Assembly: GCA_028704415.1 (NCBI GenBank) | Contig: JAQWFM010000024.1 | Span: 1 to 34,172 of the forward strand | DNA from: Oscillospiraceae bacterium | GTDB lineage: Bacteria; Bacillota; Clostridia; Saccharofermentanales; Fastidiosipilaceae | Length of the DNA stretch: 34,172 bases | Direction of reading: 5' to 3' | Shown: positions 9,097 to 33,320 of the stretch, one piece after another | Layout: every line of letters starts with the position of its first letter | Numbering within the stretch: position 1 is the first letter of the stretch | Translations under genes and position numbers: made by a program | The notes under the pieces: model-generated | What the model was told of the DNA's origin: nothing | Database searches by the model: none | What the model saw: only the letters and a program-made list of their open reading frames with translations

Positions 9097-9674
9097 TTAA
9101 CGTTTCATTTCCCAGGCTGAATCTCTGAGGTTAGCTTTTATATAGACTGCCGCCCCGCCCAGGCAAAGGATAAACATCAGGACGGACAGAGCCGCCGCTC
9201 TTTGATAGTCAAGATAAGTTGCGACTTGCTGGTACAGCAGGATACCCAGCATTTTGGGATTATTGGGTCCGGTTAAATACGGTATGGTGAATGCGCCAAT
9301 CTGGCCCATAAAAACAAAGGTCGCGCACACAATCATACACCGCCAGAAGTAATGAGGTCACAATGGATTGCACCAACTTCCGCTTGATTAAGACGTAATC
9401 CCACCATTTTAAAGCTGAAGGATTCAGGTATGATGCCCGGAAACTGATAGGTCCCCGCAAAAGAAAGCAGGGTCATATTAAGCAGTGGCCCGTAAAAGAA
9501 CAAAATAAACAGCGCAAACAGGATATACTCCCAAAACTGTTTTTTACCCAGCGAATAATACAAGCGCTTCACTTTTGCCGTTCCCCGTGTTCTTTTAAAA
9601 AGCACGGGAGAACATTGGGCTGATAACAGCCAGTCGGTCACTATTCCTTGCAGCTTGATTTCGGTTGATTTCAT
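9097..9674 (-). pseudogene. Decayed PotB/ThiP-type ABC permease, frameshifted and internally deleted
   Basis: Remnant of a binding-protein-dependent inner-membrane permease of the spermidine/iron type. The N-terminal part reads from 9674 through a first membrane helix (about WEYILFALFILFFYGPLLNM). A one-base slip in an A-run near 9408 moves the frame to WWDYVLIKRKLVQS. Near 9340 the frame changes again, straight into the C-terminal signature GAFTIPYLTGP and the last helix, ending at 9097. About 100-130 residues that normally lie between, including the EAA loop contacting the ATPase, are absent, so the product cannot be a working permease. It is joined in frame at its 5' side to the DUF4127 remnant. 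No ATPase or binding protein of the same system is nearby. Confidence 0.8.
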
Positions 9675-10924
9675 TTTGGCATCGGGGCTGTCTGAGAAGC
9701 CTTTGTAATAAGCGGCAATCACCGTATAGGCCAGCACGGTGCCGATGGTATTCCGGACGGTGTTCCAGCTGCCGATGCTCTCCACTTCCTCATCGGTTTT
9801 GGCAAGTCTCACCAGATCCATAAACTCATTTTCGCACCCCTTGCACGCCGATACCTCGTCTAGCCCCACCGACCGGTTAAACGTTTCGGAAAAATAACAG
9901 ATATACTGCAACAGCTCGTGCATGTTGATATAGCTCGAAAACGTGATGTCCTTGGCGGCCTGATCCTCCGACTCGATCATGTGCTTTCCGGGGGAATTCA
10001 CGGCCAGCAGGCAGTCGGCCTGTCCGGCACTTTCCACCAAAACGCCCCCAGAGAGGTGATCTGCGACTTAACGCCCGCATGAAGCGGTCTGTCTTCGTTT
10101 TTCGGCACGATCTGCGGCCCCACTACGGAGGAACAGTGAACCAAAACGCGGGGACGGGAATTTTTGATAAGGCAGAACATGCGGGCAAACAGAACGCTGC
10201 CGACCTCGTCGGCGCCGGGATAAACCAGTACCCAGTTCATCATCTCCCTCACCCGCTCCGCTATTGCCGCCTGATCCATGGCGGAAAAGCCGTACTCCGC
10301 CATATCGCCCTTGGGAACGGTAAGAATATCGAATACTCCCTCCTCCCCAAAATCCACGCAGGTAAGATTGACGTATCGGTTGATTTTTCTCCGGTTGAGG
10401 AAGTCTTCCATATTAGCAGGAATTTTTCTTTGCAGCTTTTCCATTTTCCTCGGCTTCAGCCTCATTGCCGTGCTCTTATTCCAGCTTGTTCTTCAGGTAA
10501 GTAATCCGCCAGATATCGTACCCGTGGTCTTTCCAATAATCCGGGTCTTCCGCACTGCTGTTGTATGCCGCAACCCGGGCCGCAAGATTAAAGCCGTGAA
10601 TTTTAAGGAAAGAATATTTCTGCTTTAAGATTCTGAAATTCTCGAGAAGGCTTTGGCATTCCAGCAGGTTTTTATGATGCATCCGGGAATTGATAATGTT
10701 GCCGTAAACCAGCGTATCCATCGAAAAAACGGCATATTCGCAGTCTTCGACCCTCTAAAAATCCAGTCGCAGAGTTTTTGCGTGTCGGCGGGAACTTTTT
10801 TCATTCCCATAAGAGAAAAAGGCGGAGTCAAAAGCTGGATATCTTCGTTCAACTCGGCAAGACCGGCAGGAAAAGCAAAGTTTCAGTCTCGCTCGTCAAG
10901 AGGAATGTAAAATATTTTCGTCAT
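9675..10924 (-). pseudogene. Decayed DUF4127 family gene (one nonsense, three frameshifts, 3' truncation)
   Basis: Starting at the ATG at 10924 the reading is MTKIFYIPLDERD, then TGA at 10883-10885, then NFAFP in the same frame. This is the DUF4127 opening, which usually reads PLDERPCN or similar, so the TGA stands near a usual Cys/Val position. The frame slips near 10760 (to VEDCEYAVFSMDTLVYGN), near 10485 (to MRLKPRKMEKL) and in a G-run near 10045 (to VLVESAGQADCLL). Conserved-looking stretches such as MNWVLVYPGADEVGS and ESIGSWNTVRNTIGTVLAY survive. The family's C-terminal part is missing where the sequence passes in frame into an ABC permease remnant at about 9674. DUF4127 function is unknown. 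It lies just downstream of a sugar permease pair and was probably the last gene of that operon. Confidence 0.8.
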
Positions 10925-19261: not shown

Positions 19262-19910
19262 GCTGATTCTCCTTTTCCGGACGAACATACTGGGCTAAAG
19301 CTGCCAGCAGGCCTAATAGGATAAAGGCCCCGGACGGCAAGAGCAGCAAGAGCAGGGGCCGGGCCTGACTGTCACTGAACGCTTTACCCAGCAAGGTCCC
19401 GGCGCCCAAAACTTCCCGGATCAGGCCCAGCACGACCAGGAGAGCCCACATAAAGAGCAGCCGTTTCAGCCAGAGTTTCCAGGTGAAAGCAACTGAGGGG
19501 ACACTTTCCTCAACCGTACCGGCGCTAAGCTGCGGATGCAGCAACAACACCACTGCGGCAGCGGACAAAGGAATATAAAGGCCAAACGTCGCCGCCGCCG
19601 CGGGCAGATATGCCCGGAGCAGCAATTCTGCCACGGTAGCGCTGAAGCCCGCCGCTACCAGGGTCTGGGCCCACAGTGCATATTGGGAGCGTGAAGGAGC
19701 CAGGCGCTGCAGCAGGCGCAGAACAGCCAAGGTTACCAGGGTTTCCCCTGCAATCAGCAGACCCACCAGCGCGCCCTGGATGGTCGACAAGACGACCGCG
19801 GCAGGCAAAGCCGCGGCCAAAAAGACCGGCGTGGCCAGACTATTTTGATATGACGGTTTTGAAGTGGCAGCTAAAGATTGGCTTTCGGTGTTACTCTCAC
19901 TGGATTTCAT
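19254..19910 (-). CDS. rnfE: Divergent RnfE-like membrane subunit without any cysteine
   Basis: Partner of RnfA in the membrane core, 218 residues, about six helices. It aligns with RnfE through NSLATPVFLAAALPAAVVLST (24-44), FGLYIPLSAAAVV (about 109-121), LGLIREVLGAGTL and LLLPSGAFILLGLLAAL near the C-terminus. In canonical RnfE the motifs LGLCPLLAVT and IPLIVTNC each supply a cluster-binding cysteine; here the equivalent stretches read LAAALPAAVV and IPLSAAAV, and the whole protein contains no cysteine at all. It therefore cannot ligate the intramembrane [2Fe-2S] centre. Its ATG overlaps the rnfG stop by four bases (ATGA). The N-terminal 20 residues are polar and Ser-rich. Confidence 0.88.
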   Translation of the reverse strand: MKSSESNTESQSLAATSKPSYQNSLATPVFLAAALPAAVVLSTIQGALVGLLIAGETLVTLAVLRLLQRLAPSRSQYALWAQTLVAAGFSATVAELLLRAYLPAAAATFGLYIPLSAAAVVLLLHPQLSAGTVEESVPSVAFTWKLWLKRLLFMWALLVVLGLIREVLGAGTLLGKAFSDSQARPLLLLLLPSGAFILLGLLAALAQYVRPEKENQHD

Positions 19911-20821
19911 TTTAACCAGCCCCCCTCCTTCAGGATATCGGCAGCGTTCAGACAGGCGTTTATGGCCCGAACCAGCGCTTTACTGCTGACGGTCGCCTGT
20001 GATAAGGCTTCTACCGGCACGAGTGTCTGGCTGGCGTTGTCAGTGTTAGTGGCAGCGCTGTCAGCATCCGCCGCAGTCTCGCCGCCGGCTTCTCCGGCCG
20101 TGGTTTCTTCCGGCGTAGCGCTGCTGGCCCCGTCGGCTCCGGCGGTGGTCTCCTCTGAGGCCGCGTCACCGGCCGTGGTCTCCTCCGGCGTGGCGCTGCT
20201 GGCCCCGTCGGCTCCGGCGGTGGTTTCCTCTGAGGCCGCGTCACCGGCCGTGGTCTCCTCCGGCGTGGCGCTGCTCTCCCCGTCAGCTCCGGCGGTGGTT
20301 TCCTCTGAGGCCGCGTCACCGGCCGTGGTCTCCTCCGGCAAATCACCGGCCGCATAAACCTGCAATTGCGAATCAGGCCCGCCCAGTCCCACAAATTGCT
20401 GATAATAGGCGGGATCGCTCAAGCCATCGCCCAAACCCAGGGTTTCGTCGCTTTCAGTCACCCTGACGCCGGTCAGGGTCAGAGTCTGGGCATCTACCCC
20501 GATTAACGCAACGATGGGGCCTTCATGACCGGAGTCTTCAGCCTGAAACAAAATACCGATCGTTTGTCCGTCTTGTTTTGCCAGATAAATAGCGTCAACT
20601 TTATCACTGATGCCGCTGCCGGCTGCGCTGAGGTCAACCGGCTCAAAGCTGTCCGCGCCCGGCACCACCTGCTGTCTCAGCTCCAGTAAACTGCTGGCTT
20701 CCTGAGCCTTAACTTTATCTTTCAGGCCCGTATACAAACCGGTAATAACCAGGCCGGCAGCGACCACAAAAGCTGCCGGAACCAGCCACCGGCCAGTCTT
20801 GCCTTTCACCTTATTTTGCAT
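19907..20821 (-). CDS. rnfG: RnfG-like FMN-binding subunit with a Thr-rich repeat insertion
   Basis: Single-span protein whose FMN-binding domain faces outside in Rnf complexes. Of 304 residues, 13-31 form the membrane anchor. The first part of the FMN domain runs from about 70 to 150, with GHEGPIVALIGVD and the TESDETLGLGDG region matching the usual HxETPGLG area. Residues 163-237 are three 25-residue repeats of EETTAGDAAS plus EETTAGADG(E/A)SSATP, followed by more acidic, Thr/Ala-rich sequence. The flavin attachment motif comes only after this insertion: ALSQATVSS with Thr277, where the family has (S/T)GAT; the Gly is replaced by Gln and the preceding Asp by Glu. ApbE-dependent flavinylation is possible but not assured. 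GGAGG supports the ATG at 20821. It overlaps both neighbours. Confidence 0.88.
   Translation of the reverse strand: MQNKVKGKTGRWLVPAAFVVAAGLVITGLYTGLKDKVKAQEASSLLELRQQVVPGADSFEPVDLSAAGSGISDKVDAIYLAKQDGQTIGILFQAEDSGHEGPIVALIGVDAQTLTLTGVRVTESDETLGLGDGLSDPAYYQQFVGLGGPDSQLQVYAAGDLPEETTAGDAASEETTAGADGESSATPEETTAGDAASEETTAGADGASSATPEETTAGDAASEETTAGADGASSATPEETTAGEAGGETAADADSAATNTDNASQTLVPVEALSQATVSSKALVRAINACLNAADILKEGGWLK
20093..20335 (-). repeat. Three 75-bp tandem repeats (plus partial) within rnfG
   Basis: Positions 20335-20111 consist of three consecutive 75-bp units that are nearly identical at DNA level, and the first 18 bp of a fourth unit extend to 20093. Each unit encodes 25 residues containing two EETTAG cores. 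The length is a multiple of three, so copy-number changes would keep the reading frame and alter only the length of an extracytoplasmic linker. Near-identity suggests recent expansion by replication slippage or recombination. Confidence 0.9.
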
Positions 20822-21773
20822 GTTTCTTCCTCCCAAAGCTTGCAGGGACTAAAGCCCGGTCCAGCAGCGGTGTCAACAGGTTCATCAGCAGAATGGCAAA
20901 AGTCACCCCTTCAGGGTAAGCACCAAAACGGCGGATCAGGATGGTCAAAAAGCCTGCTCCGGCCGCAAAAATCCACTGACCGCTGCGCCGCATAGGGGTG
21001 GAGGTATAGTCAGTCACCATAAAGACTGCGGCAAAAATCACACCGCCGTTTAAAAGCTGGTATAAGACATTGCCGGTAAACCAGCCATCCGATCCCCAGA
21101 ACCAGGCAAACAAAGCAAAGACAGCCAGGTAGATCAGCGGGACCTCCCAATGGATCACTCGCCTGACGATCAGATAGGCAAAGCCCAAAATAATCGCCAG
21201 GATGCAGACTTCGCCGATTGAACCAGCTTTATTGCCTAAAAACGAGTCCAGCAACGACGGGACCGTCCCCGACCATTTGGCGGCTGGCAGCGGCGTCGCT
21301 CCGCTGATCAGATCCAGCGATTCAGCACCTGCCTGGGGATTCATAAACTGAATCATCTGCCTGGGAAAGGAAATAAGCAGGAAGGCCCGGGCCGCCAAAG
21401 CCGGGTTCATAAAGTTACGCCCGATGCCCCCAAACAGCAGCTTAACCAGCAGCACCGCAAACACGCTGCCCAGCATAGCCAGCCACCAGGGCAGTAACGG
21501 CGTGACGCTTAACCCCAGCAGCAGGCCGGTCACAGCAGCGCTCAAATCAGCGCCGGTCACGGTTTGGTGCAGCAGTTTTTCATAGATATATTCGGTCAGT
21601 ACAGCCGAGCCGGTGCTCACCACCAAAACCAGCAAAGCCCGCCAGCCGTAAAGTACACAGCCGGCTGCCGCCAGCGGCAGGAGCGCAATCAATACATCCC
21701 GCATCACGGCGGTGGTACTGCGTCCGCTGTGAATTTGCGGACTGGCCGTTTTTGCTATGCCTGTTGTCATCAT
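20811..21773 (-). CDS. rnfD: RnfD-like membrane flavoprotein subunit
   Basis: Integral membrane subunit (320 residues, about nine helices) that carries covalent FMN and conducts electrons and ions in Rnf/Nqr. The flavinylation motif is intact: DLISGATPLP with Thr160. Other family stretches are GIGRNFMNPALAARAFL (116-132), VFMVTDYTSTPMR, and FGAYPEGVTFAILLMN near the end. The first of two consecutive ATG codons (21773) is nine bases after GGAGG and overlaps the rnfC stop. The C-terminus overlaps rnfG by 11 bp. Unlike RnfA, E and G here, its functional motif shows no obvious damage. NqrB is the paralogue, but RnfC next door has the FeS clusters of Rnf. Confidence 0.93.
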   Translation of the reverse strand: MMTTGIAKTASPQIHSGRSTTAVMRDVLIALLPLAAAGCVLYGWRALLVLVVSTGSAVLTEYIYEKLLHQTVTGADLSAAVTGLLLGLSVTPLLPWWLAMLGSVFAVLLVKLLFGGIGRNFMNPALAARAFLLISFPRQMIQFMNPQAGAESLDLISGATPLPAAKWSGTVPSLLDSFLGNKAGSIGEVCILAIILGFAYLIVRRVIHWEVPLIYLAVFALFAWFWGSDGWFTGNVLYQLLNGGVIFAAVFMVTDYTSTPMRRSGQWIFAAGAGFLTILIRRFGAYPEGVTFAILLMNLLTPLLDRALVPASFGRKKHAK

Positions 21774-23404: not shown

Positions 23405-23434
23405 TTGACAAGCCCGGGGGGCCCTTCCTATGCT
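23405..23434 (+). promoter_or_regulatory. Promoter of the adenylation/MBOAT operon
   Basis: A consensus -35 TTGACA at 23405-23410 is followed after 18 bp by TATGCT at 23429-23434. The -35 is embedded in a short palindrome GGCTT-GAC-AAGCC (23402-23414), possibly an operator. The coding start lies 45 bp further on at 23479. Confidence 0.6.
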
Positions 23435-23478
23435 TAGAAAGGATATTTCAAGAGTTATGCATAAGGGAGATGACTATT

Positions 23479-25050
23479 ATGTGGCTGGTTCAGTCTTATC
23501 TGAAACGGGCTGTAGCGCGTTATCCCAACCATCCGGCTGTGGTAGATCCGGAGCAAAGCTTCAGCTACAGTCAGCTGGCCGACAAACTAAATCACCTGAC
23601 CTCCGCGTTGCTGGCTGGGGGGGTCAGTCATCGCCAACCGGTTCCTGTTCTGTTGCCTAAATCCTGCCTCAGCGTGGCAGTCCTGCTTAGTGTGGCCCAG
23701 GCCGGCGCTTTTTACGTGCCACTAAATCCTGACCAGCCACCGGCCCGCTTGGGTCATTTACTGCAGCGCCTGAACGCAGCCCTGGTGATCAGTGACGCCC
23801 AGGGCCAGCAGATTTTGTCTACAGCCGGCTTCGCGGGCCAGGTTTGGGTGGCAGAAGACCTGTTGCAGCAGCCGCTGCAGCCGGAGCTGATGGCGCGGCG
23901 GCAACACCTGCTGCTGGATACGGATCCGCTATATTGTAATTTTACCTCCGGTTCTACCGGTGAGCCCAAGGGCGTCCTGATCTCCCAGCGTTCAGTCGTG
24001 GATTTTATAGAAGCCTTTGTCCCCCTGGCAGGCCTGAGTCACACCTCCGTCATTGGCAATCAGGCCCCCTATGATTTTGATGTTTTTGTCAAAGATCTGT
24101 ACGGCAGTCTATGCTGCGGCGCCACCCTGGTCTTGATTCCGACGCCCTACTTCACGCAACCCGCCCGCTTGCTGGATTATATTTGTGACCAGCAGGTTGA
24201 TACCCTGATCTGGGCCGTTTCAGCCCTGTGCCTGATCAGTATGCTTAAGGGCTTCAGCTACCGGGTGCCGCGGCAGCTGCGCCAGGTGCTGTTCAGCGGC
24301 GAGCCCATGCCCCTGAAGCAATTAAAAATCTGGATGGATCATCTGCCTCAGACCCGGTTTATCAACCTTTACGGACCTACAGAAATCACCTGTAACTGCA
24401 CTTACTTTGAAGTACCCGGCCCGCAGGCGCTGTCAGCCCCTTTGCCCATCGGCCGGCCCTTTGCCAATGAAGCGGTGTTTTTGCTGGATGACCGCGATCA
24501 GCAGATCACAGCGCCTGAACAAGAAGGTCAGCTCTGCGTGGCCGGCACCTGCCTGGCTTTAGGCTATTATATGGATCCGGTCCGCACGGCCGAGCATTTC
24601 ACGCTCAATCCGCTCAATCCAGCCTTTCCTGAACGGATATACCGGACAGGGGATATGGCCTATTACCGGCCGGACGGTAACCTGATGTTTACCGGCCGGC
24701 GCGACGGCCAGATTAAGCTGATGGGCCACCGCATTGAGCTGGGCGAAATTGAGGCCGCACTGGAGCTGCAACCGGCAGTGGAACGGGCCTGCTGTATTTT
24801 TGACCGACGGCGGCAGCGGCTACTGGCCTTTGCGGTGCCGCAGCCACAATTGGTGGCTTTGTTGCCCCTGGACCTTCCTGTGCGGGCTCAGAAAATCAGT
24901 GTGACTGAGCAGCAGCTGCAAGAGGCGCTACGCGCCCTCTTGCCCCATTATATGGTGCCGCAGCGTATTTACTGGTATCGCACGCTGCCGCTTAACCCCC
25001 ACGGCAAGCTGGATCGCGCCAGCTTAAGCAAGCGTTATGAGGAGGCCTGA
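23479..25050 (+). CDS. Amino-acid adenylation enzyme, DltA/NRPS A-domain type
   Basis: Stand-alone adenylating enzyme (523 residues) that should activate an amino acid with ATP and load it as a thioester on the carrier protein encoded two genes downstream. Core motifs are complete: A3 FTSGSTGEPKGV (155-166), A4 PYDFDVFV with Asp201, which in amino-acid-activating enzymes binds the substrate amine, A5 NLYGPTE (296-302), A7 YRTGD (388-392), A8 GRRDGQIKLMGHRIELGEIE (406-425) and A10 with Lys510 in GKLDR. The size and gene context are like DltA (D-alanine:carrier ligase), but the substrate pocket around TLIWAVSAL (242-250) cannot be read confidently as D-alanine. The ATG at 23479 is preferred to 23470, because GGGAG abuts the latter but stands nine bases before the former. 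The next gene begins two bases after the stop. Confidence 0.9.
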   Translation: MWLVQSYLKRAVARYPNHPAVVDPEQSFSYSQLADKLNHLTSALLAGGVSHRQPVPVLLPKSCLSVAVLLSVAQAGAFYVPLNPDQPPARLGHLLQRLNAALVISDAQGQQILSTAGFAGQVWVAEDLLQQPLQPELMARRQHLLLDTDPLYCNFTSGSTGEPKGVLISQRSVVDFIEAFVPLAGLSHTSVIGNQAPYDFDVFVKDLYGSLCCGATLVLIPTPYFTQPARLLDYICDQQVDTLIWAVSALCLISMLKGFSYRVPRQLRQVLFSGEPMPLKQLKIWMDHLPQTRFINLYGPTEITCNCTYFEVPGPQALSAPLPIGRPFANEAVFLLDDRDQQITAPEQEGQLCVAGTCLALGYYMDPVRTAEHFTLNPLNPAFPERIYRTGDMAYYRPDGNLMFTGRRDGQIKLMGHRIELGEIEAALELQPAVERACCIFDRRRQRLLAFAVPQPQLVALLPLDLPVRAQKISVTEQQLQEALRALLPHYMVPQRIYWYRTLPLNPHGKLDRASLSKRYEEA

Positions 25051-25051
25051 G

Positions 25052-26320
25052 ATGCTGTCTGATAAGCTCTGCCAAACTGCTGCGGCAGCTTTCGGCACCC
25101 CGGTTTACTTGTTTGATCTGGATCGGCTGAAGCAGCAGGTTGAACTGGTCCGGACGCAATTGCCCCAGGCTCGGCTCTGCTTTGCGGTCAAGGCCAATCC
25201 GTTTCTGATTCCGGCGCTGAGCCAGTGGCTGGACCGGTTTGAACTGTGTTCTCCCGGGGAATGGTCCCTCACCCAAAAGCTGAAGCTGCCTCAGGACCAT
25301 CTGGTCATATCCGGGGTTTATAAAAGTGCGGCTGATCTGGCCGCCATCTTTGACCAATCGGGAGACAGCTTGCCTGAGATCAGCCTGGAATCAGCCGAAC
25401 AACTGGCCTTACTGAATCAGCAGGCTCAGCGGCAGCAGCGCCCGGTGTCCGTGCTGCTGCGCCTGAGCAGCGGCAACCAGTTTGGCATGGATGAGGCAGC
25501 GCTGCGCGCCATCCTGGCCCGGCGGCAAGCATACCCTTACCTTAAGCTGACCGGTCTTCAGTTTTATTCCGGTACCCAGAAACATAGCGCCAAAATCACG
25601 GCTGAAGTTGCCGGGCTGGAAAAGCTATGCCGCTCCCTGGAGCAGGATTTTAACCTGCCCCCTTTAGCCCTTGAATATGGTCCGGGGTTGGCGGTTCGCT
25701 ACTTTATCGATAGCGGCCAATCCGCAGCAACAGCCGATCTGGATGGATCAGATCTGGCTCAGTTACAGGTTCTTAGTCAAGCTTTGACCCAAGCCGGTTG
25801 TCAGCGGCCGCTGACGCTGGAAATGGGACGTTTTTTAACAGCTGCCTGCGGCAGCTATCTGACTCAGATCGTTGATCTGAAAACAACCCGGTCAGATCAT
25901 TATTGCCTTACAGACGGCGGCATCCATCATTTGGCCTATTACGGACAGATGCTGGGGATGAAGCAGCCGCCGGTCCGCCTGATAAAAGCAGGTCCGGGCT
26001 TAAAGCCAGGCAACCTGACCGGCCGCGCGGCCAGCCCCAAAGCTGCTTCTGCAGCGGCCGCAAACTGGACGGTCTGCGGGGCGCTGTGCACCGTAAATGA
26101 CGTCTTGCTGCGCTGCATCAGTCTGCCTGACCCGCAGCCAGGTGATTGGCTGTGCTTTGACCGCTGCGGCGCGTATTCTGTAACCGAAGGTCTGGCCTTG
26201 TTTCTCAGCCGGGCCTTACCGGCAGTGGCCGCCTGCAGCAAGGCCGACGGCTTGCAGTGCCTGCGGCCGTCTACCGCGTCCTGGCCGCTAAACCAGCCGC
26301 AAATTCAGCCGAATAATTAG
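25052..26320 (+). CDS. Fold-type III PLP-dependent amino-acid decarboxylase
   Basis: Member of the diaminopimelate/ornithine decarboxylase group (422 residues), which also includes BtrK, a decarboxylase acting on a carrier-bound glutamyl thioester in butirosin synthesis. The PLP lysine is Lys47 in CFAVKANP. Further markers are GLQFYSGTQKHS (168-179), LEYGPGLAVRYF (207-218) as phosphate-binding region, EMGR (257-260), DGGIHH (288-293), CTVND with Cys346 and GAYS (373-376). These fit the less studied branch with GTQ and GPG motifs rather than classic LysA. GAGGAGG six bases upstream supports the ATG at 25052. A Ser/Pro/Gln-rich tail of about 25 residues follows the barrel domain. Its position between adenylation enzyme and carrier protein suggests it modifies the activated amino acid or its precursor. 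An alanine racemase role is less likely. Confidence 0.87.
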   Translation: MLSDKLCQTAAAAFGTPVYLFDLDRLKQQVELVRTQLPQARLCFAVKANPFLIPALSQWLDRFELCSPGEWSLTQKLKLPQDHLVISGVYKSAADLAAIFDQSGDSLPEISLESAEQLALLNQQAQRQQRPVSVLLRLSSGNQFGMDEAALRAILARRQAYPYLKLTGLQFYSGTQKHSAKITAEVAGLEKLCRSLEQDFNLPPLALEYGPGLAVRYFIDSGQSAATADLDGSDLAQLQVLSQALTQAGCQRPLTLEMGRFLTAACGSYLTQIVDLKTTRSDHYCLTDGGIHHLAYYGQMLGMKQPPVRLIKAGPGLKPGNLTGRAASPKAASAAAANWTVCGALCTVNDVLLRCISLPDPQPGDWLCFDRCGAYSVTEGLALFLSRALPAVAACSKADGLQCLRPSTASWPLNQPQIQPNN

Positions 26321-26450
26321 GGATCAATATTGTTATCTGAATTTATTGGAATATTCGCTTACTTTGCCATGATTCTTAATAAATTATTGCAACATTTTTT
26401 ATGCGAATCATTTATTACTATACCGGATCAAAAAAAGTGAGGTAAAGATT
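26321..26450 (+). promoter_or_regulatory. AT-rich leader of the carrier-protein gene, possible internal promoter
   Basis: This 130-bp gap is much richer in A+T than its surroundings. TTGCAA (26387-26392) and TTTATT (26411-26416) at 18-bp spacing form a weak promoter candidate, and ATTCGC / GCGAAT around 26353-26407 form a loose inverted repeat. An internal promoter would allow the carrier protein and transferase genes to be expressed apart from the adenylation enzyme and decarboxylase. Confidence 0.3.
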
Positions 26451-26681
26451 ATGGATGAAATTATTACGATCTTAACTGATGTTCAGCCCGGTGAAGATTA
26501 CAGCCATCTGGAAGGTTTAGTCGATAAACGGATCCTGGATTCGCTGTCCATTATTTCTCTGGTATCAGAACTGGAAGATCATTTTGACATTGATATCGCG
26601 CCGGTAGATATTGTCCCCGCTAATTTTAATTCCGCCGCTGCCATCTGGCAGCTGGTACAAAAGCTTCAGGATGACGCGTGA
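26451..26681 (+). CDS. Acyl/aminoacyl carrier protein (DltC-like)
   Basis: Small acidic four-helix carrier of 76 residues. Phosphopantetheine would attach to Ser31 in LDSLSIISL. The following SELEDHFDIDI and ANFNSAAAIWQLV resemble the helix II/III region of DltC and other stand-alone aminoacyl carriers more than fatty-acid AcpP, which has GADSLD at this site. GAGG lies nine bases upstream. It sits between the PLP decarboxylase and the MBOAT transferase, so it most likely shuttles the activated (amino)acyl group from the adenylation enzyme to the membrane acyltransferase. Its codon composition is more AT-rich than its neighbours. Confidence 0.92.
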   Translation: MDEIITILTDVQPGEDYSHLEGLVDKRILDSLSIISLVSELEDHFDIDIAPVDIVPANFNSAAAIWQLVQKLQDDA

Positions 26682-26781
26682 TCGCCGTTGTTATTGACTT
26701 GCTGCGGATTGATGTCTGAAGCCTGAGGCGCAGGTTTTATCCCGGGCTTGCGCTCACCTTTATAGTCAGGAAAACTAAGCC

Positions 26782-28362
26782 ATGTCATATAATGCGCCGT
26801 TATTTCTTTTTGTGTTTTTACCGCTCTCCTGGGGGGTGACCAGACTGATCCCCCGGCGTGGGCAGTGGCTGTCCCTGCTGTTGTTCAGTTGGGTTTATTA
26901 TCTGTCTTTCAGCCCCAGAATGCTTTTGGTGCTCGTCTTCACTATCTGCTGTACCTATTTGTCTGGCTTGATTTTGGAACGGTTATTCAAACGGGCAGAC
27001 CGGCTGGCCAGGCAAACAGCTGACCGGCAGGACCGCAAAGCCGTCAAGGCCCGGGTAAAGCGGCAGGCAAGGCTGGTATTGGCTGCGGCGATTGTGATCA
27101 TATTAGGCGAGCTGATCCTGTTTAAGTACCTGAGTTTTTTTACCACCAATCTCAATCTGCTGCTGAGTTTAGTGTCAGCTCCTAAAAGCCTGCCACTGCT
27201 GAAACTGGGCGAACCATTGGGAATATCCTTTTTTACCCTGCAATCCCTGTCCTACCTGATTGATGTATTTCGCCGCAAGTATCCGGCTGAACGCCACTGG
27301 GGCCGGCTGGCACTGTGGCTTTCCTTTTTTCCCCAAATCATGGAAGGACCGATCTGCCGCTATGACCAGACGGCAGCTTCATTGTTTGCCGGGCACAGCC
27401 TTAAGCTTGCTGATCTGACCAGCGGCGGCCAGCGAATCATCTGGGGGCTATTTAAAAAAGTTGTCATAGCCGATCGCCTCAATCCCCTGGTGACAGCCGT
27501 GTTTGACCACCCGCAGCAACAAGCCGGCCTAACGGTTTTAGTTGGCGCTTTTTGCTATACCATGCAGCTTTATGCTGATTTTTCCGGCTCTATTGATATT
27601 GTGATTGGCAGTGCCCGCCTGTTTGGCATAGCGTTACCCGAAAACTTTAACCGTCCCTTCTTTTCCCGCAGCGCTTCAGAATTCTGGCGCCGCTGGCATA
27701 TCTCCCTGGGAGCCTGGCTGCGAGACTACGTTTTTTATACCATCTCTTTCAGCCACCGGATGAAGCAGTGGGACAAAAAGCACCGGGGGGACTGGCTGTA
27801 TTTTTTCCCGCTGGCCATTGCGCTGGCAGCAGTGTGGCTCTGTAACGGCTTGTGGCATGGCGCCGGTTGGCAATATATTTTTTTCGGATTGTATTATTAT
27901 GTACTGATTCTGGGCGGTAACCTGCTGGAGCCGGTATACCGGCAAATCTTTACCGGGCTCGGCTGGTCCCGCCAAAGCCGTGGCTGGCAGGTTTTTCAGA
28001 TCGCCAGGACCTTCCTGCTGGTCATTTTGGGCGAATTGATTTTCCGCTCGCCGTCGCTGGGACAGGCCTTCGGCCTGATCGCCCGCGGCTTCAGCCGGTT
28101 CAGCCTGACAACCCTGCAGGACGGCAGCCTCTTAAAACTGGGCCTGGATAAAGCCGATTGGATCGTCGTTGCCCTGGGATTAGTGCTGCTTTTCAGCGTT
28201 GAAAGCATCCAGGAGGCAGGCCTGAATTTTTCCCTCCGTCTCAGCCAGCTGCCACGAGCAGGGCGCTGGGCGCTTTATTTGGGTCTGATTTTTGTCATTG
28301 TTATTGCCGGCGCCTATGGTCGTAATTATGGCGTAGTCCCCTTGATTTACGCCGGGTTCTAA
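26782..28362 (+). CDS. MBOAT-family O-acyltransferase, AlgI-like
   Basis: Polytopic membrane protein (526 residues, about 11 hydrophobic segments) that passes an acyl group from inside donors to an extracytoplasmic acceptor. The N-terminal APLFLFVFLPLSWG, the SGSIDIVIGSARLFG region and the hallmark EFWRRWHISLGAWLRDYVF (300-318) are AlgI/PatA-like. The MBOAT active-site histidine is His359 in NGLWHGAGW. At over 500 residues it is longer than DltB (about 400) and closer to polysaccharide O-acetyltransferases. It nevertheless lies in an operon with an aminoacyl-carrier loading system, which suggests a carrier-bound aminoacyl donor. AGGA is ten bases before the ATG; 100 bp separate it from the carrier gene. 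Confidence 0.93.
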   Translation: MSYNAPLFLFVFLPLSWGVTRLIPRRGQWLSLLLFSWVYYLSFSPRMLLVLVFTICCTYLSGLILERLFKRADRLARQTADRQDRKAVKARVKRQARLVLAAAIVIILGELILFKYLSFFTTNLNLLLSLVSAPKSLPLLKLGEPLGISFFTLQSLSYLIDVFRRKYPAERHWGRLALWLSFFPQIMEGPICRYDQTAASLFAGHSLKLADLTSGGQRIIWGLFKKVVIADRLNPLVTAVFDHPQQQAGLTVLVGAFCYTMQLYADFSGSIDIVIGSARLFGIALPENFNRPFFSRSASEFWRRWHISLGAWLRDYVFYTISFSHRMKQWDKKHRGDWLYFFPLAIALAAVWLCNGLWHGAGWQYIFFGLYYYVLILGGNLLEPVYRQIFTGLGWSRQSRGWQVFQIARTFLLVILGELIFRSPSLGQAFGLIARGFSRFSLTTLQDGSLLKLGLDKADWIVVALGLVLLFSVESIQEAGLNFSLRLSQLPRAGRWALYLGLIFVIVIAGAYGRNYGVVPLIYAGF

Positions 28363-28383
28363 CGTTACATTGAGGTATTATAC

Positions 28384-29532
28384 ATGAAGCGTCTCATAAG
28401 GCATCCCATAAAGCATCCCACAGTTCTGGAAAATCCAGGTTTATTGCCAGCTGTAACCTTATTCAGCCGACCGGTCCAGGTGATGCTTAAGATCGGTGTG
28501 TTTGCCGGGCTTCTGCTGGCTTTACTGCTATTGCTTTCTTGGCTTTTAACCCCGCTGCAGCCAGGTGAACGCTGGTCAGTCCACCCGGAACAGGATTTTC
28601 CCATTAAAGCCGAGACGCCGGACAGTGTGGATGCGGTCATGTTGGGCGACAGTCTGGGGTACGGAGATTTTGTACCAGCTTTATTATGGAATCAATATGG
28701 TTACACGACCTATGTCTGCAGTCAGTCGGCGCAGCCTTTGGAAGAGGCCTGGGCACAGCTGCAAGCAACTTTAGAGGAACAATCACCCAAACTGGTTATG
28801 CTGGAAACTGATCAGTTTTACCGATCCAGTACCCTGGCTTCAGATATCAGCCGGGCACTGTTGTTTGAGGCGGGGCAGCGTCTGCCCATTTTTAGATTTC
28901 ATGATCAGTGGAAGCAATTATTAGGCCTTAAGCAGACCCCCGCACTCAAGGCCCTGCAGCAGACCCAGCTGAAAGGCTACCGGTTTTCCAAGCTTACCCA
29001 GGGCTATAATGGCACCGCCTATATGAACGACAGCGGAACCTTAAAAGTACAGCCAGTTACGGCTTATTATCTGAACAAAATTGTGTCACTGTGTCAGGAA
29101 CGTGGTATCAATCTCTTGTTTATCAGCATGCCTTCGCCCAAAAACTACAGCATGAAGCGGCATAACGGGATTGCGCTGCTGGCTGAGCATTACAGCATTC
29201 CTTATCTGGATCTAAATCTTGATGCCCAGCAGTGCGGGATTGACTGGGCTCAAGATACCAGAGACAAGGGGGATCACCTCAATTACCGGGGGGCTCAAAA
29301 GGCCACTTTAGCCATTGGCAGCTACTTGTCCGAGCATTATCAGCTACCTGACCGGCGCGGGAGCGATATTGCCGCCAGCTGGGATGAGACGTGGGCGGCT
29401 TACCAGCAGCTATGCCAGGATGCGGAAAATCCCGATACCGGAGGAGACAGCTCCCATATCGGGGTAACTGAACCGGCCTATCTGCCGGCCAGTCCTGAGC
29501 TGATGGCAGCCCAGGCCACCACGGAAAACTAA
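28384..29532 (+). CDS. Membrane-anchored SGNH/DltD-like protein
   Basis: The 382-residue protein has a basic N-terminus, one membrane helix at about 32-56 and an extracytoplasmic SGNH-type domain. The nucleophile motif is MLGDSLGYGD with Ser90, and the C-terminal Asp/His pair falls in KGDHLNYRGAQ (Asp297, His298). Such proteins (DltD, AlgX/AlgJ, PatB) complete transfer of the acyl group handed over by the MBOAT partner. It follows the MBOAT gene by 21 bp, with GAGGT eight bases before the ATG, and ends the operon. The last about 40 residues are polar and low-complexity. DltD and AlgJ-like assignments cannot be separated by eye. Confidence 0.85.
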   Translation: MKRLIRHPIKHPTVLENPGLLPAVTLFSRPVQVMLKIGVFAGLLLALLLLLSWLLTPLQPGERWSVHPEQDFPIKAETPDSVDAVMLGDSLGYGDFVPALLWNQYGYTTYVCSQSAQPLEEAWAQLQATLEEQSPKLVMLETDQFYRSSTLASDISRALLFEAGQRLPIFRFHDQWKQLLGLKQTPALKALQQTQLKGYRFSKLTQGYNGTAYMNDSGTLKVQPVTAYYLNKIVSLCQERGINLLFISMPSPKNYSMKRHNGIALLAEHYSIPYLDLNLDAQQCGIDWAQDTRDKGDHLNYRGAQKATLAIGSYLSEHYQLPDRRGSDIAASWDETWAAYQQLCQDAENPDTGGDSSHIGVTEPAYLPASPELMAAQATTEN

Positions 29533-31327: not shown

Positions 31328-31912
31328 ATGACAGATAAAAAAGCTATGATCTTACTGGCAGATGGTTTTGAAGAGGTGGAGGCCTTATCGGTGGTGGATT
31401 GTCTGCGCCGGGCAGACATCACGATTGATCTGGTGGCGGTCAGTAACCGGGACTGGGTGCTCAGTTCGCATCAAGTTAAAATAGCCGCGGACCGGCATCT
31501 GGCGGAGGTAGGCCCGGGCACTGAGTATCAGGCTGTCATCACGCCGGGCGGCCTGCCCGGCGCGCGGACCCTGCAGTCAGATCCGGCGGTGCAGCAACTG
31601 CTGGCGCACTTTGACCAGCAGGGCAAAATTGTGGCCGCCATCTGCGCTTCTCCGATTGCCCTGGAGACAGCCGGCGTGGCCGGGCGGCACAGCGGAACCA
31701 TCTTCCCCGGTATGGAAGAGCAAGTCCGGTATCAGACTTTCAGCCAGGACCTGGTCGTCAGGGACGGCAATCTGATCACCTCCCGCGGTCCGGCTACCGC
31801 CTTCTTATTTGGTCTGGAGCTGGTCCGGCAGCTGGCTGGCGAAGCGGCCTGGGCCAAAGTCCGCCGCGCCTTGCTGATTCCGCAGCTACAGGAACAAATT
31901 GCGCAATACTGA
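31328..31912 (+). CDS. DJ-1/PfpI family protein
   Basis: Cytosolic 194-residue protein of the DJ-1/ThiJ/PfpI superfamily, comprising glyoxalases, deglycase-like enzymes and oxidative-stress proteins. The opening LLADGFEEVEALSVVDCLRRA with Glu15/Glu16 and the nucleophile-elbow Cys106 in AAICASPIALE are the DJ-1 signature, as is ITSRGPATAFLFGLELV near the end. GGAGG is seven bases before the ATG at 31328; the frame is open earlier but without a ribosome binding site. It is divergent from the disulfide oxidoreductase gene and overlaps the start of the acyltransferase gene by 14 bp, suggesting coupled translation with it. Confidence 0.92.
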   Translation: MTDKKAMILLADGFEEVEALSVVDCLRRADITIDLVAVSNRDWVLSSHQVKIAADRHLAEVGPGTEYQAVITPGGLPGARTLQSDPAVQQLLAHFDQQGKIVAAICASPIALETAGVAGRHSGTIFPGMEEQVRYQTFSQDLVVRDGNLITSRGPATAFLFGLELVRQLAGEAAWAKVRRALLIPQLQEQIAQY

Positions 31913-33320
31913 CCGGGGAAGCGGCAACCGGCCGGATCCTGTCTTGTACAGCCGGCTTAAGCGCCTGGCCGCGCCGCTGTTCAAAGCGCTGTTCAGGTTT
32001 CAGCCCCGGATTGATCCGGCGCTTTGGGCCTATCAGGGCCCGGCTGTTGTGGCGGCTAATCACTGTACGTTTATGGACCCGGTTTTGGTCGCCTTATCCC
32101 TGCCCCAGCCGGTCAGCTTTGTTGGGATGAAGGCCCTGACCAGATTCAAGCCGCTGCAGCCATTTTTTAATCATATGGGGCTGATCCCCAAGCAGCAGTT
32201 TACCCTTGATCTGCCCGCTCTCAAGGCCATGCTCCGGCTTCTGCGCCAGGGCGGCTGGCTGGGGGTGTTCCCGGAGGCGCAGCGCAGTCTGGATGGTTCG
32301 GCCTTGCCTTTTGACAGCAGCCTGATTCACCTGGCCAGACGCAGCCACGCGGCTATCATTACCGTCCGGATCAGTGGCGCATATATGGCCTGGCCCCGCT
32401 GGCAAAGAGGCGGCTTCCACCCTGGTCAGATTGAGGCCGAGGCCAGACTGCTCCTGACCCCGCAACAATTGCAGCAATGGCCGGTTGAAGTTTGTCAGGC
32501 GCAGCTGGTGCGGGAGCTGGCTGTAAGCTTTGCCGCCTGGCAGCGCCACCAAACGATACCGGTCCGTTACCGTCAGTTGTGGCCCAACCGGCACCTAAGC
32601 GACTTATTGGAGCAGTGTCCGCGCTGTCACCGGCACGCGGCCATGCGCGCCAGCGGGCGGGACGGGCTGACTTGCCGTTTTTGTCATTACAGAGTCCGGC
32701 TGCGGACGGATGGGTTGCTCTATCAGGTCCCCGCGCCGGCCAGGCAGCAGCAGCGGCAAACATCAGGGGCAGCCCGGCCTTTTAGTGATCTGGAGCAATG
32801 GCATCAGTGGCAGATTGCGCAATGGCGGCAGCAACTTTTAGCGGCCCGCCTGCCGGTAACCCCAGCGCCGCCTGCGGCCGCCGGTAAACAGGCTGTCTCA
32901 GGCCGGGGCAGCCCGCTAAAGGTCTGGCCGGTCAAAGTCAAAGCCCTGGAGTCTGAGGCTGACCGCAACCGCAAGCAACCCTGGCTCGCGTGTTCCGGCG
33001 CCTGGCAGCGCGGGCTTCTGGCGGCTTTTCCGGACGGGCTGCGGTTTTCTCCGCAGGAGCACCAGGTCGGGCTCCGGAGCCGGCAGCCCAAGCCGCTCTT
33101 TTTTCCGCTTTCCGCTGCTAATGCCCACCTGGTCTGCCGCACCGGGCTGGAGCTGCGGCTGCAGGCTGGGACGGGCCCGCTATGGCGCTGTCGGCCCCGG
33201 CGGCGTCAGGCCGTCATCCAGCTGGTTGATTTTGCCGCGGCGTTCAGCCCGGGACCAGTCCCTCCTGCGCCTAGTGAGGCTGTTGCCGTTTTAAAGCCGC
33301 CTCCCGTTGCTCCGGGTTAA
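31899..33320 (+). CDS. plsC: PlsC-type 1-acyl-glycerol-3-phosphate acyltransferase with C-terminal zinc ribbon
   Basis: The N-terminal half is a lysophosphatidate-acyltransferase domain: NHCTFMD (His55, Asp60) and GVFPEAQRS, the counterpart of the family's FPEGTRS. It would add the second acyl chain in phospholipid synthesis at the membrane. About residues 238-265 form a zinc ribbon CPRC-CRFC not found in ordinary PlsC, and 473 residues is about twice the usual length. The remaining 200 residues are Arg/Gln/Pro-rich and unrecognised. The start is a TTG overlapping the DJ-1 gene, with AGGA five bases upstream; a later TTG is possible. The 3' end overlaps the convergent cation transporter gene by 50 bp. 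The tail may be a regulatory or nucleic-acid/protein-binding appendage. Confidence 0.82.
   Translation: MRNTDRGSGNRPDPVLYSRLKRLAAPLFKALFRFQPRIDPALWAYQGPAVVAANHCTFMDPVLVALSLPQPVSFVGMKALTRFKPLQPFFNHMGLIPKQQFTLDLPALKAMLRLLRQGGWLGVFPEAQRSLDGSALPFDSSLIHLARRSHAAIITVRISGAYMAWPRWQRGGFHPGQIEAEARLLLTPQQLQQWPVEVCQAQLVRELAVSFAAWQRHQTIPVRYRQLWPNRHLSDLLEQCPRCHRHAAMRASGRDGLTCRFCHYRVRLRTDGLLYQVPAPARQQQRQTSGAARPFSDLEQWHQWQIAQWRQQLLAARLPVTPAPPAAAGKQAVSGRGSPLKVWPVKVKALESEADRNRKQPWLACSGAWQRGLLAAFPDGLRFSPQEHQVGLRSRQPKPLFFPLSAANAHLVCRTGLELRLQAGTGPLWRCRPRRRQAVIQLVDFAAAFSPGPVPPAPSEAVAVLKPPPVAPG

Follow-up and report, generated by a model that had tools for sequence, protein, structure and literature searches.

Among the closest described relatives of the cassette analysed here is the dlt operon (DltA-DltC-DltB-DltX-DltD), in which an amino acid is activated and loaded onto a carrier, crosses the membrane through an MBOAT protein and is handed over to a polymer by an SGNH protein. 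Chemistry of a different kind on carrier-bound amino acids is found in natural-product assembly. In the butirosin side-chain pathway (BtrI-BtrJ-BtrK), BtrK decarboxylates a carrier-bound glutamyl thioester, and the group so formed ends up on an aminoglycoside; BtrJ is not known to be an adenylation enzyme of the NRPS type. We consider the VinN-VinL-VinO (vicenistatin) and FlvN-type (fluvirucin B2) systems the closer precedent by analogy, because in them (3-methyl)aspartate is put onto a carrier by a stand-alone adenylation enzyme and then undergoes PLP-dependent decarboxylation on that carrier; these systems were compared by published description. VinN loads 3-methylaspartate and VinO decarboxylates the carrier thioester, FlvN takes aspartate, leading to a beta-alanine starter, and a conserved Asp of VinN/FlvN-type enzymes binds the beta-amino group (PMC11284099). 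Two further systems share parts of the same plan: MBOAT-SGNH pairs of the PatA-PatB/AlgI type, in which the MBOAT bears an FxYxxF-like C-terminal acyl-Tyr shuttle and has a separate SGNH partner, and exosortase-A loci, in which an AMP-forming ligase (TIGR03098) is paired with a related PLP decarboxylase (TIGR03099).

A five-gene cassette in the window

The window, that is, the whole 34,172-nucleotide stretch analysed, has Oscillospiraceae bacterium HV4-5-C5C as its nearest named relative and carries the following features.

23405..23434, + strand: promoter-like site TTGACA-18 nt-TATGCT, 5' of the cassette, predicted by consensus scan alone
23470..25050, + strand: stand-alone amino-acid adenylation enzyme (AA-adenyl-dom TIGR01733, 337 bits, above cut-off)
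25037..26320, + strand: fold-III PLP decarboxylase, BtrK-like (Pfam PF00278, PF02784 and PF01168 above cut-off)
26451..26681, + strand: stand-alone carrier protein, attachment Ser31 in LDSL (PP-binding PF00550, just above cut-off)
26782..28362, + strand: MBOAT with His306 and His359 and the C-terminal hexapeptide LIYAGF (PF03062 above cut-off)
28384..29532, + strand: membrane-anchored SGNH protein, DltD/PatB-like role (weak by Pfam/NCBIfam; fold from a structure model)

All five open reading frames of the set described in the first-pass annotation are thus present on the plus strand (23470-29532). Position 23405, which had been given as the operon start, is not the first codon (23470), but it does coincide with the promoter-like site. 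The adenylation and decarboxylase reading frames overlap by 14 nt, and the neighbours of the cassette, both on the minus strand, are an Rnf operon and a gene for a pyridine-nucleotide-disulphide oxidoreductase.

Unlike dlt, the cassette has a different adenylation pocket, an extra PLP decarboxylase and family scores well below the dlt cut-offs; its MBOAT bears its own C-terminal Tyr shuttle, whereas dlt uses DltX and DltB has no Tyr motif. It also differs from the VinN and FlvN systems, whose product feeds a polyketide synthase, in continuing with an MBOAT and an SGNH protein, and from the PatA-PatB/AlgI-type pairs, which use acyl-CoA donors, in having a carrier and an adenylation enzyme. Judged from its genes, it appears to be a carrier-fed pathway joined to a shuttle-fused MBOAT, and it looks like a variant of MBOAT-SGNH aminoacylation related to teichoic-acid D-alanylation. 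No earlier description of the cassette, or of beta-alanyl or GABA wall esters, was found in the open-access literature.

Three other places in the window were noted. The RnfG-like gene (19907-20836) contains a 75-bp tandem repeat of 3.3 copies (20094-20339), in which an EETTAG-type stretch is expanded in frame. Between a glycosidase gene and sugar ABC permease genes lie broken and overlapping reading frames with an apparent permease fragment (9333-10465), which may be the remains of a gene or mark a join in the assembly. A PlsC-like acyltransferase (31899-33320) has a C-terminal extension with a zinc-ribbon-like CxxC...CxxC motif.

Recurrence of the cassette

When the decarboxylase alone was used as the query against 84,980 genomes, 80 loci were retained, mainly from Lachnospiraceae and other Clostridia. 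All five genes occurred together in 64 of these 80 loci; in nine more the SGNH gene alone was not recognised, and contig ends interrupt most of the others. Because so many complete sets were recovered with only the decarboxylase as query, the linkage is not chance synteny, and the five-gene neighbourhood suggested by the first-pass annotation is borne out across genomes. Gene order varies between loci (MBOAT-SGNH may lie 5' of the adenylation gene, or the carrier 5' of the decarboxylase) and the set stays intact. The commonest flanking genes encode a response regulator and a histidine kinase, each at about 24 of the 80 loci, mostly upstream and on the same strand. Among sampled genomes of the phylum, the decarboxylase family was found in 4 of 398, with its closest adenylation relatives adjoining it in each. 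A plasmid search returned only matches that were NRPS-type or unannotated.

Classical dlt is itself rare in the phylum: DltA exceeded its cut-off in 1 of 149 sampled genomes, and no DltA over the cut-off was found in the genome of the window. Surface-charge tuning in these gut Clostridia is therefore a live question, and a cassette that decorates the envelope with another amino-acyl group would bear on resistance to antimicrobial peptides and on interaction with the host.

In L174 (8713-12057, minus strand) the decarboxylase forms the N-terminal part of a 1114-residue open reading frame that continues with a transmembrane helix, Ig-like/Rib domains and a transglutaminase-like domain. An apparent decarboxylase-carrier fusion in L027 was given no weight: it comes from a metagenome assembly, the sequence of its linker includes a start Met and what resembles a Shine-Dalgarno site, and it may reflect a lost stop codon.

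Active-site and pocket signatures of the five proteins

The kinship of the decarboxylase with BtrK, asserted in the first-pass annotation, was confirmed: its top PDB matches are BtrK structures (2j66, 7ru7; 93 bits), followed by the SbnH-type structure 6knh and, at no more than 67 bits, by diaminopimelate (DAP) decarboxylases. It has the PLP lysine K52, a QFGMDE motif common to the cassette family and BtrK, and CT352xxD355, in which T352 stands where all ten LysA-type sequences aligned with the family have Glu (CT..D versus CE..D); this Thr is present in 99% of the 80 cassette decarboxylases. The RPxLY motif is absent, having been lost in the cassette family by a three-residue deletion in the same alignment. 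Its LysA family score is 115 bits against a cut-off of 298, and the genome has a separate LysA-like gene elsewhere (283 bits against the same cut-off). The scores, motif losses and separate LysA-like gene therefore rule out an ordinary lysine-pathway LysA, the outcome that would have overturned the earlier annotation. By closest homology and by its CT..D and QFGMDE motifs the enzyme is predicted to be of BtrK type, and it thus resembles an enzyme acting on a carrier-bound acidic residue. The exosortase-A families were rejected: TIGR03099 is the decarboxylase's best named family, yet it scores 143 bits against 478 at the cut-off, and TIGR03098 is related to the adenylation enzyme, yet it scores 191 against 592.

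The adenylation enzyme (structure model pLDDT 92) scores 256 bits against the DltA family TIGR01734, whose cut-off is 560. Its pocket code, read by alignment at ten positions, is DVKWLSLCNK (D204, V205, K208, W248, L274, S276, L300, C308, N309 and K513), whereas the same columns read DLMSLCTVAK in a DltA over the cut-off and DLLSLCLVAK in one just under it. Codes across the cassette family are near-identical to DVKWLSLCNK, with one small subgroup reading IARWCSQASK; D204 and K208 are invariant in the DVKW group, which was set beside VinN and FlvN by published description. A fold search with the model does not discriminate, as NRPS, DltA, VinM and HitB structures rank together. D-alanine is an unlikely substrate, because the pocket differs from that of DltA, the comparison proposed in the earlier annotation, and has Lys at position 239.

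To guard against circularity, 72 adenylation enzymes were gathered by adenylation similarity alone and their neighbourhoods were then read. A decarboxylase lay within 5 kb of 25 of 30 enzymes with DVKW/DIKW pockets versus 3 of 42 with other pockets (Fisher p 2e-11, ignoring shared ancestry). Lys or Arg was found at position 239 in all 28 decarboxylase-linked enzymes, and in 36 of 36 linked to a decarboxylase or racemase versus 14 of 36 others (p 4e-9, likewise ignoring shared ancestry). A tree built without the pocket columns resolved three supported clades, named here DVKW, IARW and DAKW. A decarboxylase accompanies 33 of the 36 rows in the DVKW clade and 4 of the 5 in the IARW clade; of the 12 rows in the DAKW clade, 8 have a racemase and 1 has a decarboxylase. 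A second DVKW group, of four rows with one decarboxylase, stands apart in the tree. Since Lys/Arg-239 tracks the decarboxylase and the DAKW sister clade adjoins an Asp/Glu-type racemase, the likeliest substrate of the Lys-239 pocket is a dicarboxylic amino acid or a comparable acidic one; Lys-239 together with Asp-235 is also how an ordinary alpha-loading Glu pocket may look.

The carrier has the conserved Ser31 of its family, scores 29.7 bits against DltC (NF003464), below the cut-off, and has cispentacin AmcB as its best family match, also below the cut-off. The PDB matches of the MBOAT are DltB only (6bug/8jem), although it scores 159 bits against DltB TIGR04091, whose cut-off is 375. The label 'AlgI-type' given to it earlier therefore holds for architecture, the fused C-terminal Tyr shuttle being of PatA/AlgI type, and not for closest sequence, which is DltB. 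His306 and His359 are conserved in the family, and the shuttle motif (LIYAGF in the window) occurs in every full-length MBOAT homologue listed and, by strict pattern, in at least 47 of 51 sister MBOATs, the others being near-matches or truncated. No separate small DltX-like reading frame bearing this motif was recognised in the operon among those of at least 70 aa; it is the MBOAT that carries it. The SGNH protein has a transmembrane helix at about residues 29-55 and Ser90, Asp294 and His298, and G88, S90, D294 and H298 are conserved in its family. Its profile match is weak; its model (pLDDT 84) supports the SGNH fold named in the first-pass annotation, matching TesA-type SGNH proteins first, with PatB at Z 12.3 and DltD at E 2.7e-4. 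With the MBOAT His residues, the C-terminal Tyr shuttle and the SGNH Ser-His-Asp, the two proteins have the residues expected of an MBOAT-SGNH acyltransferase pair.

Proposed mechanism, its rivals and sister cassettes

We propose, with moderate confidence, that the locus is a Dlt-like envelope aminoacylation cassette with decarboxylation on the carrier. In this scheme an acidic amino acid, most likely L-Asp and failing that L-Glu, would be activated by the adenylation enzyme at its side-chain carboxylate and loaded onto the carrier; in the pocket, Asp204 would bind the amino group, and Lys208 would pair with the alpha-carboxylate left free. That alpha-carboxylate would be removed on the carrier by the PLP decarboxylase, giving beta-alanyl-S-carrier (or GABA-S-carrier). 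The MBOAT would take the acyl group through the membrane and attach it to the Tyr in its C-terminal LIYAGF, from which the SGNH protein would transfer it to a hydroxyl outside the cell; the probable acceptor is a teichoic acid or another glycopolymer of the wall. The product would be an omega-amino ester, adding positive charge. One candidate for an LTA-synthase-type enzyme is encoded in the genome, a 769-residue membrane protein of the sulfatase family. The reading of on-carrier decarboxylation followed by export, first put forward in the earlier annotation, finds support as an analogy in the BtrK-like decarboxylase and the Lys-239 pocket. Within the family, aspartate to beta-alanine is our first choice for the DVKW group because D204 is kept, and the IARW group, which has lost the pocket Asp, may use glutamate. 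Such a cassette would join natural-product carrier chemistry to wall modification, with pocket codes that predict the substrate.

PLP decarboxylation requires a free carboxylate beside the amine. Loading of a residue through its alpha-carboxylate would block decarboxylation at that position; therefore, either the side chain is loaded or decarboxylation comes first. The second course, in which free beta-alanine, GABA or some other amine is first made by the PLP enzyme and then loaded by the adenylation enzyme, is unlikely but has points in its favour: SbnH, which shares the BtrK-like Thr (CT..D), uses a free substrate, and same-pocket cassettes without a decarboxylase would be easily explained by free beta-alanine or GABA from elsewhere. 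However, the Lys/Arg-239 present in all decarboxylase-linked enzymes would be needless for a substrate without a second carboxylate, and a basic pocket residue kept for that carboxylate fits side-chain loading. The decarboxylase is, moreover, nearest to the carrier-acting BtrK, and in the vicenistatin pathway the residue is decarboxylated only once it has been loaded (PMC11284099).

We consider it improbable that the product is a secreted small molecule or lipid-linked compound rather than a wall-polymer modification. Stand-alone adenylation enzyme and carrier pairs are frequent in natural-product clusters, and the AmcB match of the carrier points the same way; however, a Tyr-shuttle MBOAT with an anchored SGNH protein is typical of envelope polymer acylation (PMC12148441), and no conserved natural-product tailoring genes were found in the flanks of the 80 loci. 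Still less probable is carrier-bound meso-DAP, loaded via its L-centre, decarboxylated on the carrier at its D-centre and exported as a lysyl group. Fold-III relatives (LysA) do decarboxylate the D-centre of DAP, and the family-invariant Lys208 could hold the distal carboxylate, but the CE..D Glu is replaced and the RP of RPxLY deleted in the cassette decarboxylases, and the pocket code has no second acidic residue for the distal amine. An ordinary dlt D-alanylation operon with a LysA gene inserted by chance is hardly credible: the MBOAT, carrier and adenylation enzyme each have Dlt relatives, yet the pocket and the DltA, DltB and DltC scores rule out a true dlt operon, and the decarboxylase, without LysA motifs, is kept in the cassette while a LysA-like gene lies elsewhere.

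The cassette, for which on-carrier decarboxylation remains our preferred reading, belongs to a varied set in which several pocket codes and different accessory enzymes occur. In the DAKW sister group, a PF01177/TIGR00035 racemase, also above the cysteate racemase cut-off, adjoins 8 of 14 enzymes among the 72, which suggests that these cassettes load D-Asp, D-Glu or D-cysteate and gives an independent hint at an acidic substrate. In L127, L169, L171-L173 and L176-L178 the code is DAKW[AC]GLGMK and the Asp/Glu-type racemase gene lies directly beside the adenylation gene. The DVKW pocket can also work without a decarboxylase, a usual but not obligatory partner, since five DVKW cassettes have none nearby; in two of these five genomes no decarboxylase was found at all. 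Relatives with DNLW, DIFW or DLQW pockets (L128, L130-L132, L134, L221 and L225) adjoin one or two carriers, with no MBOAT found nearby, and possibly represent another product class.

Tentatively, and with some doubt, we suggest that Clostridia have a broad class of 'programmable' Dlt-like cassettes for envelope aminoacylation, whose pocket and accessory enzyme (PLP decarboxylase, Asp/Glu racemase or formyltransferase) would set the surface group as beta-alanyl/GABA, D-Asp/D-Glu or formylated esters. If so, cassettes of the decarboxylase class would decorate a bacterial wall polymer with omega-amino acid esters, a modification without precedent in what we found. In one DVKW-pocket cassette, L185, the decarboxylase is replaced by a formyltransferase-domain gene (PF00551; 6422-7303, minus strand).
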